Shown: positions 1,260 to 13,110 of the stretch, in pieces
How the letters are laid out: each line of letters begins with the position of its first letter
Numbering within the stretch: position 1 is the stretch's first letter
Virus record (IMG/VR): IMGVR_UViG_3300042503_000164
Span: 1-29,486 of that record
From: a virus
Strand: one strand, 5' to 3'
DNA: 29,486 nt
Notes under the pieces: model-generated
Seen by the model: the letters and a program-made list of their open reading frames with translations, nothing else
What the model was told of the DNA's origin: nothing
Databases searched by the model: none
Program-made: the position numbers and the translations under genes

Positions 1260-1466
1260 TTAGCCGTTGATGATTTGCAACAGGCCAGCAGCGGCGGCAG
1301 CAACAAACGCCAGCGCGGCGGCAACCGTTGTTTTCCAACCCAGCTTCTTTTCAGATTCATCGACCATAGGCAGAAGTTTGCCCGTGGCCTTCTTGATGAT
1401 GGCTTTTTCGGCTTCTTTCTTCAAAGCCTTGCCAGCTTCTTTCTTCAATGTGCTTTTAATATCCAT
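1260..1466 (-). CDS. Small membrane protein, holin candidate
   Basis: Last gene of the late operon. The start at 1466 is chosen because AGGAG lies 7 bases upstream; an ATG two codons earlier would be too close. The 68-residue product has a strongly basic amphipathic N-terminal half (KKEAGKALKKEAEKAIIKKA), an acidic hinge (VDESEKK), and one C-terminal membrane helix (TTVAAALAFVAAAAAGLLQI). A small basic single-span membrane protein directly after the endolysin fits a class III-type holin or a lysis regulator. The two-span protein at 2088-2597 is a competing holin candidate. Role inferred from position and topology only. Confidence 0.6.
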   Translation of the reverse strand: MDIKSTLKKEAGKALKKEAEKAIIKKATGKLLPMVDESEKKLGWKTTVAAALAFVAAAAAGLLQIING

Positions 1467-1476
1467 GTTCATTCTC

Positions 1477-2091
1477 CTATAACCAAGTTGCGTATTTCTT
1501 GGTCTTTTGTTTGCGGTCATCTAGGCCGTGGGTTCCGCCATTGATGCGCTTGGTAAGTGCAAGGATAGCAGCGTCGTTGATGCCCTGATCGCAGATGCTC
1601 CACAACTTGTTTGCGTCAAAGAACCACAAGGCACTTTCAAAGCCCAGTTCAGTAGCAACAAGGTCTGGATTGTCCAAAATCTCCTGTTCCCGACCAATGT
1701 ATTTGCCGAATGCGCGATAGTTGTTCTTCCCGGTGAGTTGGAGCGGCCCCCTGCCCCGGTATTTCCACCCATCGCCTGATGCTTCGTCGCCATTACCCAT
1801 GCGGTTAGCATAAACACGGTTGGCAATTTTCTGTGGCTGACGCTCATAGGCACGGGCCAAAGCATCAGTTGGGAAATACTTCCCAAAAATGCCCCTCAAC
1901 CCCTTAGCGCCGTAGTTCAGGTTTTCGCTGAACGCTTTGAAATTGCCCGATTCATGCGCCGTTTGAGCAAAGAAATGTGCAGCCCGATTAGGTGATAGTT
2001 TATAAAAAGCCGCAGCTTTCTTACATGTACCTGGACCGAACGCACCATCTGCATGACACCCACATTTGCTTTGAAGATTAATTAAGCTCAT
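1477..2091 (-). CDS. GH19 chitinase-like endolysin
   Basis: A 204-residue murein hydrolase of glycoside hydrolase family 19, which cleaves the glycan backbone of peptidoglycan at lysis. The first 35 residues (LQSKCGCHADGAFGPGTCKKA) look like a shortened peptidoglycan-binding repeat. The catalytic region has AHESGNF with Glu47 as likely acid and ENLNYG with Glu56 as second carboxylate, then YRGRGPLQLTG, ESALWFF and RINGG-LDDR, all family signatures. No signal or anchor segment is evident, so export should need a holin. The start at 2091 overlaps the previous stop (ATGA) with a GCGGAG site 9 bases before; an earlier in-frame ATG at 2109 is less likely. Confidence 0.93.
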   Translation of the reverse strand: MSLINLQSKCGCHADGAFGPGTCKKAAAFYKLSPNRAAHFFAQTAHESGNFKAFSENLNYGAKGLRGIFGKYFPTDALARAYERQPQKIANRVYANRMGNGDEASGDGWKYRGRGPLQLTGKNNYRAFGKYIGREQEILDNPDLVATELGFESALWFFDANKLWSICDQGINDAAILALTKRINGGTHGLDDRKQKTKKYATWL

Positions 2092-2597
2092 TTGCCAGCA
2101 CTCCGCCAATCAGGGAAATCAAGTTCATCGACTACGCCGTCACCGTTGGCATCGTAACGCAGATCACCGCGATACTTTTCCCAAGGCTCCATTTCGTCAT
2201 CGTCATCATCGATTTCTGGTTCATCAATAAACACAGTCGCGGCTGGATCATCATAACGTGGCGCAGGAGCAACCATGTCAGGTGTAAGCGGCAGCGGGTC
2301 TGGTTGTGGCGCTACAGGGGCCAGAGGCTCTGGTTCTGGGTCATCACGGTCTTCTGGTGGTGGTGGGGCCAATTCGCCCTTCATGCCCATCAGGGTGGCG
2401 TAGGAGCCAGCCACAGCGCCGACAACAGAAGTCATGACGTATGACAGCAAGCCAAATACATCTTTATTGTCAATAATCTCATTCGATATGAACAGCCCGA
2501 CAATCATAGCGCAAGTGATGGCGACAATGACAAACGCCATCGTTTTTGCCGCCAGCAGTAACGCTTTAATTCGCGCCTCTAATAATTTATCATCCAT
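2088..2597 (-). CDS. Two-span membrane protein with EF-hand-like end
   Basis: 169 residues. Two membrane segments lie in the first 75 residues (about 18-39 and 47-70), joined by a short loop (SNEIIDNKDVFG). A long Pro/Asp/Glu-rich tether follows (APPPPEDRDDPEPEP and similar), then an acidic patch (EIDDDDDEMEPWEKY) and a C-terminal DANGDGVVDELDF. That last motif matches a calcium-binding EF-hand or dockerin loop (D-x-N-x-D-G-x-x-D-x-x-D). The two-span front resembles small holin-like proteins in the lysis region of aquatic phages. It overlaps the endolysin start by four bases. It could be a holin with a regulatory tail or an envelope protein; calcium binding is inferred from the motif. Confidence 0.75.
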   Translation of the reverse strand: MDDKLLEARIKALLLAAKTMAFVIVAITCAMIVGLFISNEIIDNKDVFGLLSYVMTSVVGAVAGSYATLMGMKGELAPPPPEDRDDPEPEPLAPVAPQPDPLPLTPDMVAPAPRYDDPAATVFIDEPEIDDDDDEMEPWEKYRGDLRYDANGDGVVDELDFPDWRSAGK

Positions 2598-2600
2598 ATA

Positions 2601-3131
2601 TTAGTCCTTTCCTGCCAGCGGATTTGCCAGCGTCTTTTGAATGCGCTCATTAGTTTGCGCCTCCAACTCTTTGATGCGACGTTGCTGTTCCTGATCTTGC
2701 TGACGCAACTGATCGATCACTGCACGTTGCATGGCCATGTTTTGAGCATCGCTGCTCCTAACGCTACTGGAGACAGCATCAACCGTCTGGCGCGTTCCAC
2801 TGACGCTACTGCTGATGCTGCCCGTCATGTAATTTAAGGCTTCGCTATTGATCTTGGTCAGGCGCTCAACGCTTGTCACGCGCTCATCCAGAACAGAAAT
2901 GCGGCCTTCAATGCCAGACAAGTCTGGCGGAACATATGCCGCCGTCACTTCCTGCATGGTCAGGAATTGCTGATACACTTGGAAGCCAGCCCAGAGGCCA
3001 CCAAGGATTGTCGAGAATGCAGCAAAGATAATTGCAATCTTGCCGCTGCTCAGGCCACCAATGTTGAAGCTAAAACCGCTTTCATCAAAGGATACCTTTG
3101 GCTCTTCTTTTTCATCATTTGTATTGCTCAT
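2601..3131 (-). CDS. Membrane-anchored coiled-coil protein
   Basis: 176 residues: an acidic N-terminus (MSNTNDEKEEPKVSFDES), one membrane segment at about 30-55 (GKIAIIFAAFSTILGGLWAG), then a mostly helical, Ser/Gln/Glu-rich coiled coil ending KELEAQTNERIQKTL. The likely topology is inside-out with the coil in the periplasm, as in inner-membrane spanins such as Rz, but no partner outer-membrane lipoprotein was found. It overlaps the preceding secreted-protein gene by 17 bases. It is one of five envelope-type proteins in a row. Function unknown; spanin is one option. Confidence 0.75.
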   Translation of the reverse strand: MSNTNDEKEEPKVSFDESGFSFNIGGLSSGKIAIIFAAFSTILGGLWAGFQVYQQFLTMQEVTAAYVPPDLSGIEGRISVLDERVTSVERLTKINSEALNYMTGSISSSVSGTRQTVDAVSSSVRSSDAQNMAMQRAVIDQLRQQDQEQQRRIKELEAQTNERIQKTLANPLAGKD

Positions 3132-5166
3132 CTACCATCTCCTGCCATCTGGCATCGTTTGTCTGCATCAATCGATACAACTCAAAGTTTGCGTCTTGCA
3201 GCCTACGTCTGCTATATATATCACGAACTGCATAAAAGTCAGCCCTATCTTGTAAAGACGCTTGGGTGTACGCCGCAAAGCCAGGTACTGTGCCGATCTC
3301 CGATATTGTTTCGCTTTGCCCTTCGGACATTCCGCTTTCGGTCTGCGTAGTGTTTTCGTTGGAAGATGCAGCAGGAGGTGGGCCAAGGCTTAGAACCTCA
3401 ACTGCGTTTGCCATAGATACTGGGCTGGTTACCGATATGGTCGCATCCAATGGCAAAACGCTTTGCGCCGAAGATACACTTGGCCCTTGCACGAACGACT
3501 CGCTAAATGCGCTTTCGAAACGCGCTTGCGCTGAGAAGGTATTTGACGAAGACGTATCCTGTACCTCCTGCATACCACTCTCTTGCTGTTGTGTGCTTTC
3601 TTTAACTTCCGAATTGGCTACAGCCAGTGCGGGGGCTTGATTTAATTCAGGTTGCTCAATCACATCTGCGATGGCTAACGCTGGAGTTTGATTTGCCTCC
3701 ACCCGCTCAGTTACTTCTGACACAGTTACGGCAAGCGAAGGTGCTTGTTCTTGCTCTACGCGCTCTGTTGCGTCTGGACCAATTGAATCTAGTGCAGAGG
3801 ATTGTTCAGACTCTACCCGCTCGGATATGTCTGGAGTGGTCACCGACAGCGTAGCGGGTTGTTCTGACTCCGACTGCTCGACTGCATCTTGGTCGGATGC
3901 GATCAGCACAGGGGATTGTTCTAATTCCAGCCGCTCAACTACGTCTGGTCCGGTTATGTTCAACGCCGGGTTTTGATCTATTTCCAGCCGCTCGGCTGCG
4001 TCTGATTCAATTGCTTCAAACGTATCAACTTGTTCCGACTGCTCGGTTATGTCAGAGACAGTTGCCTCAAGCGCATCGTCTTGGCTTATTTCCGACTGCT
4101 GGGCAGCGTCTAGATCGTCTGCATTGAACGCATCAACTTGGTCAGATTTGTCCACTGCTTCTGGCTCATCAACATCCATTGCAGTTGATTGTTCTGATTC
4201 TGATCTTTCGGTTGCGTCTGTGCCAGTTGCGGCCAGAGCAGCAACCTGATCTGGATCAAGGCGCTCAACCGTTTCGACCTCGCGCACACTAGCCTCCACA
4301 TCCGCCTCCGGCTCGTCAGCGATTGTTGCAACCTCCTCGGTTTCCGCGACTTCCTCCACCTGCTCAACTGCGACGGCTACTTCACTCATCTCCTGCGCTT
4401 GCTCCAGTGCATCTGTGGCTGTATCTTGCACCTCTTCTATTTGCTCTGTCGTAAGCTCCGCGCTCTGCTCAACGGCTTCGGCAATTGCAGCCACAGGGTC
4501 TGGAATGGTTTCAATACTGGCTGGTGGGCAGCTTGGGTCCATAGGTGTCAGATTGCAGTCAACGGTCACGATAGGCGTTGGTGCAACCCATGACAAAATG
4601 CCAGATTGGTTCTGAAGATATTGCGCGTTTCGACCGTAGAAAAGCGGAATGTTGTCTTCAGGGTTTGGGCCTGTGATGCCTGCGGTGAAATCGCGCCAAC
4701 CTGAGAAACCCAGATTACCGTAATTCAGTTGAATCTTACCGTCCGAAAAAAGACCTATTTCGAAGGTGCTACTGTTATTTGTGCCGTACTCGTTCGTGCC
4801 GTACCAGCCAAATAGGATAGAACTATCGTCGCGGCGGTAATATGGGTTGCCAGTATAGCTGATTAAGTCTGACCAGTAGCCGTATATCGTGTTGCGCTGC
4901 GCCCGATCTAGCGGTTCGCCGTTGCAGCACAGGTTAGCGGCGCTCTGGAAAGACACGAATCCGTTGGATGAAACCCATGCGTCGGTGAACGTCTGCCCCC
5001 AATAGTCGAACTCAAAACCAAGGCTGACACGGGCTGTGTTGTCATCGCCTAAATTAAGAGGCGTCATTGTCGTTGGAGTGCCATTGATCTGCGGTGGTAT
5101 TAAGGCAGGCTCATAGACTTGCGCACGAACAGGCGTTGCACAAGTCAGCAGGACAACTACCCGCAA
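3115..5166 (-). CDS. Secreted NIDO-like protein with acidic repeats
   Basis: Large exported protein of unknown role, about 683 residues from TTG 5166. Signal segment LLRVVVLLTCATPVRA with cleavage before QVYEPAL. Next, about residues 40-168, a domain resembling the NIDO (nidogen extracellular) fold: FEFDYWGQTFTDAWVSSNG, YGYWSDL, IGLFSDGKIQLNYGN, FTAGITG. Then a two-cysteine segment (VDCNLTPMDPSC), about 200 residues of imperfect 18-20-residue acidic repeats (DATERVEQEQAPSLAV type), a Ser/Gln-rich stretch, and a basic helical end (RDIYSRRRLQD to MVDEQYK). The start is unclear: no ATG; TTG at 5238 overlaps upstream by 62 bases; ATT at 5181 would give the most typical signal peptide. Possibly an envelope or virion adhesin. 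Confidence 0.85.
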   Translation of the reverse strand: MRVVVLLTCATPVRAQVYEPALIPPQINGTPTTMTPLNLGDDNTARVSLGFEFDYWGQTFTDAWVSSNGFVSFQSAANLCCNGEPLDRAQRNTIYGYWSDLISYTGNPYYRRDDSSILFGWYGTNEYGTNNSSTFEIGLFSDGKIQLNYGNLGFSGWRDFTAGITGPNPEDNIPLFYGRNAQYLQNQSGILSWVAPTPIVTVDCNLTPMDPSCPPASIETIPDPVAAIAEAVEQSAELTTEQIEEVQDTATDALEQAQEMSEVAVAVEQVEEVAETEEVATIADEPEADVEASVREVETVERLDPDQVAALAATGTDATERSESEQSTAMDVDEPEAVDKSDQVDAFNADDLDAAQQSEISQDDALEATVSDITEQSEQVDTFEAIESDAAERLEIDQNPALNITGPDVVERLELEQSPVLIASDQDAVEQSESEQPATLSVTTPDISERVESEQSSALDSIGPDATERVEQEQAPSLAVTVSEVTERVEANQTPALAIADVIEQPELNQAPALAVANSEVKESTQQQESGMQEVQDTSSSNTFSAQARFESAFSESFVQGPSVSSAQSVLPLDATISVTSPVSMANAVEVLSLGPPPAASSNENTTQTESGMSEGQSETISEIGTVPGFAAYTQASLQDRADFYAVRDIYSRRRLQDANFELYRLMQTNDARWQEMVDEQYK
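3604..4221 (-). repeat. Acidic 18-20-aa repeat array in NIDO-like gene
   Basis: About 11-12 imperfect units with the pattern D-x-x-E-R-x-E-x-(E/N)-Q-x-P-A-L-x-V, for example TERVEQEQAPSLAVTVSE followed by VTERVEANQTPALAIA. Units differ in sequence and slightly in length, so the array is old or diversified. It likely forms an extended acidic stalk between the N-terminal domain and the C-terminal helix. Confidence 0.75.
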
Positions 5167-5176
5167 AAGGTATGTC

Positions 5177-6769
5177 TTAATCCTTGACAGGGCGAAGCTC
5201 GACGTTTTCGGTCCACGCGGCGCGAGCTTCCTCGCCAATCAAACCCAAGAATGGGCACGGTGTTCCGGCCATCTCCATTGCCCTGAAGACGCGGAAGTCT
5301 TGGCATAGGAGACTGACGGCGGCGACACGCATACCCATATCGTAAAGGGTCTTAGACAGCTTCATCCGTTCGCAGTTCTGGTCACGCACGGTGCGGCCAG
5401 CCGACAAGCCAATGATCTGGGTCTGCACTGCGCCAGACTGGCCAGTGGTGCATAGGTCTTGGCTGTAGGACATCATGCTTGGCGCGATGGCGCTCGGCGG
5501 TGGCGACTTGATGTTCTGGTCGATGACCTGACGCGATACGTTCTCGCTGTAGCTTTTGCTGTCAGATACGTTGACGTTATTGTTCTGATTGACGTTGTTG
5601 CTGGTCTGGTTGACCGTGCTGTTGCTAGTTTCGTTCGTCGTATTGATGTTGTTATTCGTGTTTTTGCTATCCACCGTGCTATTTTGGTTGACGGTTTGGT
5701 TCACCGTGGATGTGCTGACATCGTTATTGAAATTGCGGTTTGTATTATCAGATGTGCTGTCAGAAGTGTTCTGGTTAATGTTGTTCATTGTGCCAGAGTT
5801 CACGTTGTAGTTCGTGTTGGTGCTGTTATTCGTATTCTGGTTTACGTTCGTAGCGTTTAACGTGTTCTGATTAATATTAGTAACAGTACCAGAGTTGATA
5901 TTCTGATTTACGTTATTGTTCGTATTCACGTTTGTGGCGTTCAGCGTATTCTGGTTAATGTTAGTCATAGTTCCAGAATTGATGTTCTGATTAACATTTG
6001 TGTTCGCGTTTGTGGCGTTCGACGTGTTCTGGATGATCGACGTAACGGTTCCAGAATTAATGTTCTGGTTGACGTTGTTATTGGTATTTACGTTCGTGGA
6101 CGTACTAGTGTTCACGTTTGTGTTGTTAGAACTGGACGTGTTCTGATTGATGTTAGTCATCGTACCAGAATTGATGTTTTGGTTTACGTTCGTGTTGGTG
6201 TTGTTCGATGTGTTTTGATTAATGTTAGTCATCGTACCAGAGTTTATATTCTGGTTGACGTTGTTGTTTGTGTTTACGTTCGTGGAACTTGACGTATTTT
6301 GGTTAATATTAGTCATTGTCCCAGAATTGATATTTGTATTGGTGTTGGTAGAATTTAACGTGTTTTGATTGATATTTGTCATAGTCCCAGAATTAATGTT
6401 CTGGTTGACGTTTGTGCTAGTTGATGTGTTCTGGTTTACGTTCGTACTGGTGTTTACGTTCGTGTTGGTGTTCACATTAGTAGCGTTCGACGTGTTCTGG
6501 TTAATGTTTGTAACCGTTCCAGAATTGATGTTCTGGTTCACGTTATTGTTAGTGTTTACATTTGTGCTGGTTGATGTGCTGGTAGACGTGTTATTATTCT
6601 GGTTGACGTTCGTGTTAGTGGACGTGCTGGTAGACGTATTAGTATTATCTGTCGTGCTGTTGGTTGTCGTGTTATATATGTATTCCGTCGGCGCTGTGGA
6701 TGTGGCCTGTGCCAACACCATCGACGATGACGCAATTAACGAGATAAAACCCAGCACAAATTTTTTCAT
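5177..6769 (-). CDS. Secreted Asn/Thr-rich repeat protein
   Basis: 530 residues with three parts. A standard signal peptide (MKKFVLGFISLIASSSMVLAQ). Residues about 33-418 are almost only N, T, S, Q, V and I, with nine copies of N-I-N-S-G-T-(M/V)-T-N-I-N-Q-N-T spaced by shorter N/T runs; such alternating polar/hydrophobic repeats are typical of beta-helix or amyloid-like folds. Residues about 420-530 form a globular domain with cysteines near 440, 466, 489 and 505 (CTTGQSGAVQ, NCERMKLSKTLYDMGM, SLLCQD, GTPCPF), suggesting two disulphide bonds; I recall similar domains from marine phage proteins. The ATG overlaps the preceding stop (ATGA). Curli-like fibre, adhesin or envelope coat are possible roles. 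Confidence 0.88.
   Translation of the reverse strand: MKKFVLGFISLIASSSMVLAQATSTAPTEYIYNTTTNSTTDNTNTSTSTSTNTNVNQNNNTSTSTSTSTNVNTNNNVNQNINSGTVTNINQNTSNATNVNTNTNVNTSTNVNQNTSTSTNVNQNINSGTMTNINQNTLNSTNTNTNINSGTMTNINQNTSSSTNVNTNNNVNQNINSGTMTNINQNTSNNTNTNVNQNINSGTMTNINQNTSSSNNTNVNTSTSTNVNTNNNVNQNINSGTVTSIIQNTSNATNANTNVNQNINSGTMTNINQNTLNATNVNTNNNVNQNINSGTVTNINQNTLNATNVNQNTNNSTNTNYNVNSGTMNNINQNTSDSTSDNTNRNFNNDVSTSTVNQTVNQNSTVDSKNTNNNINTTNETSNSTVNQTSNNVNQNNNVNVSDSKSYSENVSRQVIDQNIKSPPPSAIAPSMMSYSQDLCTTGQSGAVQTQIIGLSAGRTVRDQNCERMKLSKTLYDMGMRVAAVSLLCQDFRVFRAMEMAGTPCPFLGLIGEEARAAWTENVELRPVKD
5516..6673 (-). repeat. N/T-rich repeat array, nine NINSGT units
   Basis: DNA encoding the polar repeat region. Nine copies of the SGT-M/V-TNINQNT unit lie roughly between 5766 and 6540. 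Protein copies are nearly identical, but the DNA copies differ repeatedly at third codon positions (AAC/AAT, ACG/ACA/ACT), so the array is conserved by selection on protein rather than by recent copying. Confidence 0.85.
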
Positions 6770-6996
6770 GATCTGTCAGCCTTGTTATCCAGCTTGTCTT
6801 CAATTCTGCGAAGGTGCGTCATTACTTCGTCAAATTTCTTGTCGATGGATTGAAATTTCTCATCGCCAAAGCCCAGCCGCGCTTCAAGCAGCGTCAGTTT
6901 GTTGGTCAGATTCACCCAGACAGTTATCAGCGCCCCTATAAAGCTAAGGGCGGTGATGACAAAACCAAGGATGGTAAAGAGTGTGTTAGTATCCAT
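6766..6996 (-). CDS. Small membrane coiled-coil protein, 76 aa
   Basis: The frame is open up to a GTG at 7056, but this would overlap the fibre chaperone gene; ATG 6996 gives MDTNTLFTILGFVITALSFI and is preferred. The product has one N-terminal membrane helix (about 5-28), then an amphipathic coiled coil with regular hydrophobic spacing (LTLLEARLGF, FDEVMTHLRRIEDKL) and a basic end. This layout is common among small phage proteins near lysis and fibre genes (compare the inverse layout of XhlA). No good ribosome binding site precedes 6996, but a 12-codon reading frame with a strong GGAGG site overlaps the start. Function unknown. Confidence 0.7.
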   Translation of the reverse strand: MDTNTLFTILGFVITALSFIGALITVWVNLTNKLTLLEARLGFGDEKFQSIDKKFDEVMTHLRRIEDKLDNKADRS

Positions 6997-7025: not shown

Positions 7026-7505
7026 CTATCCTCCGGCTGATGGCGACGCAGGCCACTCAATGTTGAACGGGTCACTTTGCGTTGTTATATCACGCAATGC
7101 CTGCCGATACGATCCCCAATTTGCAGCTTCCGCGCTTGTCAGTGGCGCATCAGGAAGCTGGGTCCAATCGCAAGCGGTCAGACGGCGATTGCGGTCAAAG
7201 CGGACAGCGCCCCACTCCTGCTCTGTACGGGCGGCAATTTCTTCTTCGTTCATCGGAACAACAATCCGCGTCTGGTAAAATACGCCGTTGTCTTGCGACT
7301 TAACCGGAGCGACTTCTTCCAGCTTCTCAAACACACCGTGTTCTGGTGGCATGGAGAAATCATAAATACCGTATCCGTAGGGCTCAATGTGTTCCGGCAA
7401 AAGCGGGAACGGCAAAGATACGCTTGGGTTGACTTGCTTGAAGTTATCAAGAGCTACTGGGTTGCCTGTTGGCTGACCATTTTCAAGTTGAATAAGAAAC
7501 ATCAT
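7026..7505 (-). CDS. Tail fibre assembly protein (phage_tail_APC-like)
   Basis: 159 residues. The C-terminal third has RNRRLTACDWTQLPDAPLTS, then WGSYRQALRDIT and a WP end. This matches the phage tail assembly chaperone-like family (Phage_tail_APC), whose hallmark is (S/C)DWTQLPDAPL-x-W-x-YRQALRDI. The N-terminal part (residues 1-95) is a beta-rich variable domain. Such proteins are usually encoded right after fibre or adhesin genes and help them fold or attach, which fits here directly downstream of the glycine-rich adhesin. ATG 7505 overlaps the adhesin stop (ATGA); a second ATG at 7502 has slightly better spacing to AGGGA. Confidence 0.85.
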   Translation of the reverse strand: MMFLIQLENGQPTGNPVALDNFKQVNPSVSLPFPLLPEHIEPYGYGIYDFSMPPEHGVFEKLEEVAPVKSQDNGVFYQTRIVVPMNEEEIAARTEQEWGAVRFDRNRRLTACDWTQLPDAPLTSAEAANWGSYRQALRDITTQSDPFNIEWPASPSAGG

Positions 7506-8371
7506 ACATTCCCTGTGTTAGTTGATGGAAAGGAGCGACCTGGCCCCCAGATAATACGGACTGCGCCGCCGCCGCCGGAACCGCCACCGAAATCGGTATA
7601 TTGGGTACCGTAGTACCATTCACCAGTTCCTTCGTCGTATAGCTCAACTGTATTTGTACCGTAGCCACCGCCGCCACCTCCGCCGCCGTAGCCGCCACCT
7701 CCGCCGCCACTGTAGTAGGCACCACCGCCGCCAGAGCCGCCAGAGCCGTCAGAGCCGCCGTAGCCGCCAAACGCGCCGCCGCCATTAGTCCCTTGACCTA
7801 AAAGTCCGACGCCACCGCCGCCGCCACCGCCGAACCTGATTTCGTCATAGCCACCTGTATAATATTGTGGTGGCTCGCCGCCCCCGCCACCGCCTCCGGC
7901 ACCATTGATGCCGGTGCCGCCTGATCCCCCGTAATACGCCCCTGAACCACCTGTATAAGTGTTCCCGCCTGTATAGCCAGCCGCGCCGCCTCCGCCTACT
8001 CCGGCATTGCCGCCGCTTGAGCCGCCTTGGTTTATATGGGCGCTATAGGTTCCGGAACTGCCTTGGCCGCCACCATTTGCGTTGACTGAATACGCAGCGG
8101 CGGTGCCAAAAGCACTGCCATTTGAAACTACAACAAGGTAACTGGAACCCGGTGTAACTGGGATATTGTTTCTCCACCCAAGTGCGCCGCCGCCTCCGCC
8201 TTGTCCCATGCCGCCGTTACCGCCAACGCCGACAGCAACAACGCAAACGCTCGTCACGCCCGGAGGACAAATCCAAGAAAAATTCCCAGGTGTGGTGTAT
8301 TGCTGTTGCCCCTGCGGTGGCCCACTTGGACCGCCACTAACCATCAGCAATGCGCGAGATACGCTATCCAT
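7502..8371 (-). CDS. Glycine-rich tail adhesin, copy B
   Basis: 289 residues. An N-terminal beta domain (QQYTTPGNFSWICPPGVTSV, VVAVGVGG) leads into long poly-Gly stretches broken by short aromatic loops (QYYTGGYDEIRF, VELYDEGTGEWYYG), ending GGAVRIIWGPGRSFPSTNT. This is the glycine-rich domain type used at phage tail or fibre tips; in phage S16 and relatives, glycine-rich strands pack as polyglycine helices and loops recognise the host. It is a paralogue of the gene at 8957-9829, sharing both ends and differing in the middle. The start at 8371 is preferred over upstream in-frame codons because it lies 4 bases after the previous stop. Host-range role inferred. Confidence 0.85.
   Translation of the reverse strand: MDSVSRALLMVSGGPSGPPQGQQQYTTPGNFSWICPPGVTSVCVVAVGVGGNGGMGQGGGGGALGWRNNIPVTPGSSYLVVVSNGSAFGTAAAYSVNANGGGQGSSGTYSAHINQGGSSGGNAGVGGGGAAGYTGGNTYTGGSGAYYGGSGGTGINGAGGGGGGGEPPQYYTGGYDEIRFGGGGGGGVGLLGQGTNGGGAFGGYGGSDGSGGSGGGGAYYSGGGGGGYGGGGGGGGYGTNTVELYDEGTGEWYYGTQYTDFGGGSGGGGAVRIIWGPGRSFPSTNTGNV
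7505..7570. repeat. Direct repeat, adhesin 3' end, unit 1
   Basis: The last 60 or so bases of the adhesin gene here are nearly identical to 8960-9025, the end of the other adhesin gene (both contain TTCCCTGTGTTAGTTGATGG on the plus strand). Together they mark a duplication and could support recombination that swaps or deletes the intervening adhesin. Confidence 0.8.
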
Positions 8372-8375
8372 CGCC

Positions 8376-8957
8376 TTACGCCGTGTAGTTCGTTTGCGCT
8401 GCGCCGCGCCAGTTTGTTCCGGCATCGTCAGTCACAAACGTGAAAAGGTGAACGCGGCTAGTTGTCAGTGTTGGTGCAGTGCCACCAGGCCAACGAACAG
8501 TGGTCGGCCAGGTGACAGAGCCGCTGGTGTGCGTCAGTTCCAGCGTAAACGCATATGCGCGGCTGGACGGCGGGTTGCTAAACGTGAATGTGCTGTTCGC
8601 GCTGATAGTCTTGGTAAAGAAGTTACCCAATGAGCAGTCGATGTCGAGGGCTGCAACCGCAGTCAAGCTACCGCGAACCGGACCCAATTGATCGGCTGTC
8701 GCTATGGTAGCCGTGCCAGTAAACGTCGGGGCCGCAAATGATGTCCCAGAAGGCATTGTGACCGTGCCTGTGAACGTCGGAGATGCAAATGATGTCCCAG
8801 AAGGCACTGTGACTGTCCCCGTAAACGTCGGAGATGCAAGTGGAGCCACTCCGGTCAGCGTGTTACCGGAGAACGAGATTGTCTTGTTAGTAACTGTTTG
8901 CGTGTTGGCCGCAGTCAGGACGTTTGATGGGGTAATGATGTTTGAAAGATTAGCCAT
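8376..8957 (-). CDS. Short tail fibre-like protein
   Basis: 193 residues. The N-terminus (ITPSNVLTAANTQTVTNKTI) and three tandem 17-residue units (ASPTFTGTVTVPSGTSF) are classic phage fibre shaft repeats. The C-terminal 100 residues form a beta-rich domain (DIDCSLGNFFTKTI, FTLELTHTSGSVTWP, VHLFTFVTDDAGTNWRGA) of a kind seen at the ends of many phage fibre proteins. It lies between the two glycine-rich adhesins and overlaps the previous stop by one base (TAATG). It probably forms a minor fibre or a connector for the adhesins. Fibre assignment is firm; its place in the virion is inferred. Confidence 0.82.
   Translation of the reverse strand: MANLSNIITPSNVLTAANTQTVTNKTISFSGNTLTGVAPLASPTFTGTVTVPSGTSFASPTFTGTVTMPSGTSFAAPTFTGTATIATADQLGPVRGSLTAVAALDIDCSLGNFFTKTISANSTFTFSNPPSSRAYAFTLELTHTSGSVTWPTTVRWPGGTAPTLTTSRVHLFTFVTDDAGTNWRGAAQTNYTA
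8713..8838 (-). repeat. 51-base tandem repeat in fibre gene
   Basis: Two full and one partial copy of a 51-base unit encoding ASPTFTGTV-x-PSGTSF. The plus-strand segment GATGTCCCAGAAGGCA recurs 51 bases apart. The high DNA identity suggests recent expansion and possible change in copy number by slippage. Confidence 0.8.
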
Positions 8958-9828
8958 TAGACGTTCCCTGTGTTAGTTGATGGGAAAGAGCGACCAGCGC
9001 CCCAGATGATGCGGACTGCGCCGCCAGTAGCGGCGCCACCTTGACCGTAAAAAGTTCCATATTCGTAATCGATTGTTCTTGAGCCGCTTCCTCCCCCGCC
9101 GCCATACTCGCCGCCGTCCTTTATATTGGAACCTCCACCTGTTCCACCGGAGCCGCCGCCGCCGCGATTTCCCCCAACAAATGAATCCGTTGGGATTGAA
9201 GCGCCTCCGCTACCAGAGGAACCTGCACCTAAAAGCCCGACGCCACCGCCGCCGCCACCCGCAGTTTCCCAAAAATAAGTATCAGTATAATTATTACCGC
9301 CACCGCCACCACCGCCTGCGCCGCCGCCAGAGCCATTGCCCCCTGTGGAGCCACCCTGCGCTCCTCCGTTGCCGCCGTTCCCTGTGTATCCTCCTGCGCC
9401 GCCACCGCCAGAGCCGGAGTTACCAAACCCATTCCCGCCGTTACCGCCGCCATCGCCTACATATCCGCCGCCAGCAGAGGAGCTACTCACACTACCGCCT
9501 CCCCCCTTAACAGTGCTAGAGGATATAAAATAACTATCCTCTCCGGGATCGTAACCTCCGTCATAGCCACCAAAACTGCTGGCAGCTACCTGCACTGTAT
9601 AGGAAGTACCCGGCGTCACGGAAATATTGTTTTTCCAGCCAAGACCTCCGCCACCTGCGGCTATATAACCCGCTCCACCTCCTCCGCTGCCAACACACAC
9701 GACGCAAACGCTCGTTACGTCCGCAGGACAAACCCACGAAAAAGTTCCAGCCGTGGTGTATGCCTGTTGACCAGGGGGTGGCCCAGCGGCCCCACTAGCT
9801 GCAAGAAGCGCCATCTGGATCGCAGTCA

Positions 9829-9829
<1 letters not shown>
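8957..9829 (-). CDS. Glycine-rich tail adhesin, copy A
   Basis: 290 residues, paralogous to the product at 7502-8371. The N-terminal block (QQAYTTAGTFSWVCPADVTS, LGWKNNISVTPGTSYTV) and the C-terminal block (GGAVRIIWGAGRSFPSTNT) match between copies, while the Gly-rich middle has different loops (DTYFWETAG, ASIPTDSFVG, SRTIDYEYGTFYG). Loops between glycine runs are the likely receptor-contacting parts. The start at 9829 overlaps the collagen-fibre stop (TAATG), so the two genes are probably translationally coupled. Family assignment is from composition plus conserved ends. Confidence 0.85.
8960..9025. repeat. Direct repeat, adhesin 3' end, unit 2
   Basis: Partner of 7505-7570, in the same orientation about 1.45 kb away, with only scattered mismatches over some 60 bases. 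The 5' regions of the two adhesin genes (about 8230-8340 and 9690-9800) are also clearly similar at the DNA level. Confidence 0.8.

Positions 9830-13110
<3,281 letters not shown>

Follow-up and report, generated by a model that had tools for sequence, protein, structure and literature searches.

A linked three-gene set encoding predicted envelope proteins recurs in phages of Pelagibacter and Roseobacter and is a candidate for a role at lysis

Introduction

Two-component spanins (Rz/Rz1) pair an i-spanin, which has one N-terminal span and a periplasmic coiled coil, with a lipoprotein partner, and their genes often lie in the lysis region. According to the accessible part of a survey by Kongari et al. 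(2018; PMC6139136), no spanin was found in 91 phages among 677, and 20 of those 91 infect marine cyanobacteria; the authors called for other routes of outer-membrane disruption to be sought. A different multi-gene, exported system, the curli or type VIII secretion module with its N/Q/T-rich repeats, is common to unrelated pelagiphages, as described in the available portions of two reports (PMC9599517, PMC9004378). The protein family phrog_20531, which includes JWAlpha gp25 (role unassigned), combines secreted repeats with a four-cysteine domain.

Here we describe a gene set found in the window, by which we mean the whole stretch of DNA analysed, a virus record of 29,486 bases whose minus strand carries five consecutive genes. 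Three of them (A, B and C) form a unit that turns up repeatedly in phages of Pelagibacter and Roseobacter, among them T4-like, T7-like and other types. Such phages rank among the most abundant, and to our knowledge their lysis has barely been studied.

Results

Gene map of the window

An earlier note, made from the letters of the window, had described a five-gene envelope cassette, and all five reading frames are indeed present on the minus strand between a tail-fibre-assembly gene and an endolysin gene (Table 1). The minus-strand order runs from fibre-type genes through the gene at 7505-7026 and the five genes to the GH19 endolysin and an 86-aa protein, which gave no significant family in Pfam and PHROG searches and is possibly lysis-related. 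The note's statement that the genes are coupled by short overlaps is nearly right: gene 1 and A overlap by 4 nt, B and C by 17 nt, and D and the endolysin by 4 nt (the endolysin ATG at 2091 overlaps the D stop codon), but C and D are separated by a 3-nt gap. The overlap of A and B is 62 nt if B starts at TTG; this start is uncertain because no in-frame ATG or GTG lies ahead of the signal peptide. Elsewhere on the window, positions 9829-13110 encode a 1093-aa fibre protein of the collagen-like GXY type; after it come two glycine-rich proteins, one at 8957-9856 and the other at 7502-8425. Gene calls were by greedy ORF choice, virion gene names in the window beyond Pfam and PHROG matches were assigned by eye, and the signal-peptide, transmembrane, lipobox and EF-hand counts given below rest on simple home-made rules.

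Table 1. Genes of the set and its flanks in the window, in minus-strand order
Feature	Position	Strand	Description
Tail-fibre-assembly type protein	7026..7505	-	Upstream boundary; Pfam PF16778 (Phage_tail_APC) 4.4e-21
Gene 1, small protein with one TM span and coiled coil	6766..6996	-	ORF, 76 aa; optional accessory
Gene A	5177..6769	-	530 aa; Sec signal, N/T-rich repeat stalk, four-Cys C-domain at aa ~436-530
Gene B	3115..5238	-	707 aa from TTG 5238; signal peptide, predicted beta-sandwich at aa ~60-205, acidic spacer, conserved tail
Gene C	2601..3131	-	176 aa; predicted inner-membrane coiled coil, PPDLSGIE motif, C-terminal NPL motif
Gene D	2088..2597	-	169 aa; two TM spans, Pro/acid-rich tail, EF-hand-like loop; optional
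GH19 endolysin	1477..2091	-	Pfam PF00182 7.5e-12; phrog_181 2.3e-64
86-aa protein with one C-terminal hydrophobic span	1260..1520	-	ORF, read from sequence

A, B and C are one linked unit

Scans of IMG/VR with three A query sets returned at least 594, at least 598 and at least 239 encoding stretches; only the best 80 from each scan were kept, which biases the sample toward the query. Genome contigs supplied 16 further A relatives. Among the matches listed, 267 A loci were examined, many on short contigs that do not enter the linkage counts, and C lies downstream of A at every one of the 149 loci with at least 4.2 kb after A (46/46, 33/33 and 48/48 in the three scans, 11/11 genome contigs, 10/10 phage records and the window), a count made partly circular by a C model (HMM) built from C proteins downstream of A. 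A check by pattern gave the same picture, with the ORF after B ending in NP[LMI] at 130 of 132 loci versus 1 of 1153 minus-strand ORFs. Anchoring a scan on the B tail (78 loci counted) placed A upstream at 38/38 and C downstream at 70/70 of the loci with enough DNA, and anchoring on C (best 80 kept, a sample likewise biased toward the query, some contigs in common with the earlier scans) placed the B tail upstream at 69/69 and A upstream at 42/42.

Given this complete linkage and the NP[LMI] ends after B, A-B-C is one unit. The linkage counts take the original finding beyond chance, and the proposed check for co-occurrence in relatives, made from three anchors, bears out the trio, which is not scattered. 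What does not stand is a fixed set of five, since gene 1 and D are optional.

The C-terminal ~95 residues of A match ten phage records (E 4e-6 or better), six of them Pelagibacter phages. A gene for a long exported protein comes after A in these records, and farther downstream all ten have a gene for a coiled-coil membrane protein. In MW202675 both A and C are present, and the interval yielded no gene recognised as B. Carriers include the T4-like phage Mosig (Kyanoviridae), Autographiviridae AP013540, Roseobacter phage CRP-207 and other pelagiphages; Roseobacter phage CRP-810 also carries the set. A terminase was not found in two of the seven MAG genomes searched, a result that says little about whether those contigs are viral.

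Features of the three proteins

Export-type N-termini are a regular property of the first two proteins. The signal-peptide rule is satisfied by A at 141 of 148 loci and by B at 192 of 196, versus 112 of the 613 remaining ORFs that reach 150 aa or more. In the window both carry ordinary signal peptides without a lipobox, and across loci even a loose lipobox pattern occurs in only 23 of 344 A and B N-termini. Together with the single membrane span of C, these signals agree with the suggestion in the earlier note that the set is built to act at the envelope.

That note had also read A and B as two large repeat proteins, which holds for A and fails for B. The N/T/Q-rich repeats of A are tandem units of 66-84 bp, modelled by AF2 at low confidence as a strand-rich beta-solenoid; in the VIA structure comparison they reach Z 14-17 to the SufB/SufD beta-helices, scores that are common for repeats and here come from a low-confidence model. 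The length of A ranges from 160 to 628 aa across loci, and many A proteins are of ~180 aa and nearly repeat-free. The profile of phrog_20531 matches A at aa 337-505 (PHROG search, E 2.5e-14), and the C-domain is predicted at pLDDT of about 80-92 (AF2). Four cysteines are kept in 219 of 224 distinct A domains, and the same four-cysteine pattern is present in bacterial and Achromobacter versions. Two domain variants have lost the last two cysteines jointly, which hints at a disulphide pair; conservation and paired loss are both as expected of disulphides. Domains missing the last two cysteines were seen at L416, L423 and L418. A separate candidate, an in-frame A-B fusion at L418, was judged weak because B retains its own start and signal peptide there.

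In B, an acidic spacer joins a folded N-domain to a conserved tail. AF2 gives the N-domain, a beta-sandwich, a pLDDT mostly of 81-95, gives the spacer low values and predicts the remainder to be mostly disordered. B is acidic, with a median net charge of -73 (n = 195), and C-terminal alignments show a conserved [FW]Y..+.IY segment in the tail. Among close relatives of the window, identity is 76-85% in the N-domain and 64-83% in the tail and falls to 31-34%, with many gaps, in the spacers: the ends are kept and the spacers change fast. The tail is homologous across the loci of the window clade, and a C-terminal model made from that clade detects B only within the clade and in one genome contig. 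The B of the pelagiphage clade has no more than a ~20-residue stretch, [FW]Y..+.IY, in common with the window clade (hhalign E 7e-4; reversed control 0.33). Roseophage-clade loci carry, where B would be, a smaller protein that has no detectable similarity to window-clade B. The type of N-domain varies by clade as well, from the window-like beta-sandwich in one to CBM_4_9-like (E 0.0089) and legume-lectin-like (E 0.012) domains elsewhere. By these comparisons B is the variable member of the trio. Searches of window B against Pfam and PHROG were empty, Foldseek searches of the PDB with A and B gave nothing at E 0.001 or better, PDB sequence searches for both were uninformative, and the best Z for the B N-domain in the VIA structure comparison was 4.8.

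C has one span within the first 75 residues in 183 of 209 proteins, followed by a coiled coil read from the sequence, the topology being a prediction. An NP near the C-terminal end is invariant in 56 of 56 aligned proteins. The C proteins of Roseobacter phages CRP-810 and CRP-207 (L346:7165-7587 and L010:3292-3873) are annotated as lysozyme, a label that is apparently wrong because both look like one-span coiled coils.

Position near lysis genes and relation to spanins

Neighbourhoods were counted at the 66 loci flanked on each side by 3.5 kb of DNA or more, using recognised clustered families only. A same-strand endolysin lies within 3.5 kb at 35 of these loci and within 2 kb at 28, and 31 of the 66 have no recognised endolysin within 3.5 kb; the corresponding figures for other genes are 4 for TerL, 1 for the portal and 26 for holin-like membrane genes. 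The nearest endolysin is at a median distance of 785 nt (n = 81), and in the window the two genes after C encode a two-span protein and the endolysin. In AP013540 (Votkovvirus) the trio sits between fibre and terminase genes, which is where the T7 spanin sits, and a terminase follows C in some phages. The position may mean merely that the genes belong to a late operon.

Compared with two-component spanins, C resembles an i-spanin in its one N-terminal span and predicted periplasmic coiled coil, and the cassette is likewise often in the lysis region. The cassette differs in having two large exported proteins in place of a lipoprotein partner, and C has no Rz-like sequence match: in the window it matched no PHROG spanin up to E 1. 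Nor do spanin-like pairs and the trio exclude each other. At least six loci (L043, L046, L049, L077, L162 and L169) encode, besides the trio, an Rz-like protein and a partner with a lipobox, and a strong Rz-like match was found in 7 of 60 large records; the phrog_739 search was positive in 9 of 14 control genomes too, hence only matches with E below 1e-7 were counted. On these two counts we rejected the view that A-B-C is a plain spanin replacement. At all six of these loci, on marine phage contigs, the Rz-like gene (phrog_739) overlaps a gene for a ~125-aa lipobox protein, and at L046, L077, L162 and L169 it begins 3 nt after C. A PF00959 lysozyme was found in 16 of the 60 records, in some within large ORFs resembling virion proteins.

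Discussion

The reading that we favour, at a probability of roughly 0.4, is that A, B and C together make up a late complex that spans the envelope and aids disruption of the outer membrane at lysis. We infer complex formation, the periplasmic site and the role in lysis: the site from export without a lipobox or an outer-membrane pore, the inner-membrane tether from C, and the part played at lysis from gene position. In outline, A and B would be exported by Sec to the periplasm, as their signal sequences suggest, there being no lipobox and no translocator in the core, and C, whose coiled coil is predicted to lie in the periplasm, would anchor the assembly in the inner membrane. The beta-sandwich end of B could attach either to the wall or to the outer membrane on its inner face, with the B spacer and the A stalk probably setting the reach. 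Once the endolysin removes the wall, the complex would help to break the outer membrane or to prime it. The task would be spanin-like but carried out by different parts, which in some phages work next to spanin-like proteins. In favour of this reading are the complete linkage, the export signals of A and B and the single span of C, the endolysin genes nearby, the place of the trio in AP013540, the kept ends and divergent spacers of B, and the conserved cysteines of A. Against it count the spanin-like pairs beside the trio, the loci with no recognised endolysin within 3.5 kb, the distance of the A homologue from the lysis cluster in JWAlpha, the A-domain proteins in bacterial replicons, and the terminase downstream of C in some phages.

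The earlier note had offered surface remodelling, superinfection exclusion, lysis timing or virion aggregation as candidate roles; gene position favours lysis. The evidence bears differently on the other readings. Superinfection exclusion, in which C would tether a lectin-like B together with the stalk of A so that they mask or alter receptors or DNA entry, is unlikely. Exported proteins with an adhesin-like domain, of a type that differs between clades, would suit it; the genes nevertheless lie among late and lysis genes, unlike known exclusion genes, most of which are early, and the proteins lack a lipobox or outer-membrane anchor for reaching the surface. We consider it quite unlikely that the set makes an adhesive material outside the cell, comparable to the curli described in pelagiphages (PMC9599517), by which cells, debris or progeny would aggregate. 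Such a role could draw on the repeat composition, predicted solenoid and variable length of A and on the secreted neighbour of A-domain proteins in Variovorax and Burkholderia, but A has no curlin family match, the core has no secretion pore, short A proteins are nearly repeat-free, and C is an inner-membrane protein by prediction.

Control of lysis timing by the set, as a holin sensor or brake in the periplasm after the manner of T4 RI as the available portion of a report describes it (PMC8385771), strikes us as very unlikely. In the window and in roseophages the cassette adjoins a holin-like gene whose product has two spans, and a periplasmic domain with disulphide-type cysteines would be in keeping with it; A and B are, however, very large for an antiholin, and the neighbouring membrane genes vary between clades. 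Least credible, and in our judgement highly improbable, is that these are ordinary virion parts such as fibre accessories. The cassette does follow fibre genes in the window and in AP013540, yet A and B carry signal peptides, unlike most other ORFs there, C is a membrane protein, and in the accessible part of the JWAlpha report gel bands were assigned to other products with the A homologue unmentioned, by a method that shows prominent bands only (PMC3915230).

Returning to envelope disruption at lysis, with or without spanins, it remains the likeliest job for the trio and is a function of a known kind. A bolder version, that A-B-C represents an undescribed class of envelope machine in which an inner-membrane coiled coil would tether two exported spacer proteins across the periplasm, moved as a unit between T4-like, T7-like and other phages of dominant aquatic bacteria and used at lysis by a mechanism unrelated to spanins, we regard as possible but doubtful. 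We could name no system whose composition matches that of the trio, and the earlier note had said likewise of the five genes. In the libraries searched, none of the three members has a relative with a known function. The literature searched, which leaves out most subscription journals, showed no earlier description of such a cassette. The pelagiphage curli module is likewise multi-gene, exported and shared by unrelated phages, but the A-B-C core differs in having no curlin match, no pore and an inner-membrane coiled coil. Membership of A in the curli family was rejected for want of a Pfam match up to E 1, and no CsgG pore is annotated across the ten phage stretches inspected. Tight linkage, export signals and closeness to lysis genes make A-B-C a concrete lysis candidate, and through their linkage three gene families without an assigned role gain a common context.

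Optional genes and A domains outside the cassette

A small transmembrane gene lies within 400 nt upstream of A at 31 of 151 loci versus 11 of 343 control genes; gene 1 of the window has only weak PHROG matches (best E 0.0023). An EF-hand plus transmembrane gene lies downstream of C at 19 of 186 loci versus 1 of 832 control ORFs. D has hydrophobic spans at aa 8 and 46 and a DANGDGVVDE loop, gave no match by tblastn across phages, and may be called holin-like by shape only, its two spans and adjoining endolysin gene fitting the layout of a class II holin. EF-hand proteins with two spans occur after C in two orders, spans first in the window (2088-2597) and EF-hand first in the roseophage clade (L010:3870-4226).

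Distant A-like proteins occur alone in Achromobacter phages JWAlpha and JWDelta. JWAlpha gp25 is like A in its secreted repeats and four-cysteine domain; that genome differs in carrying A alone, the B and C models being empty there (a weak negative). Its holin/muramidase/Rz cluster is separate and far from the A homologue, according to the available portion of the report (PMC3915230). Solitary, unannotated secreted A-domain proteins were also seen in Variovorax, Burkholderia and Novosphingobium replicons (L425:7602-8621, L426 and L427), with no evident prophage around them. Like A, they have a signal peptide, a Ser/Thr/Asn-rich stretch and the four-cysteine domain; they differ in belonging to cellular replicons, with no B or C among the surrounding ORFs read by eye. 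The Variovorax and Burkholderia proteins each adjoin another Ser/Thr/Asn-rich secreted protein.
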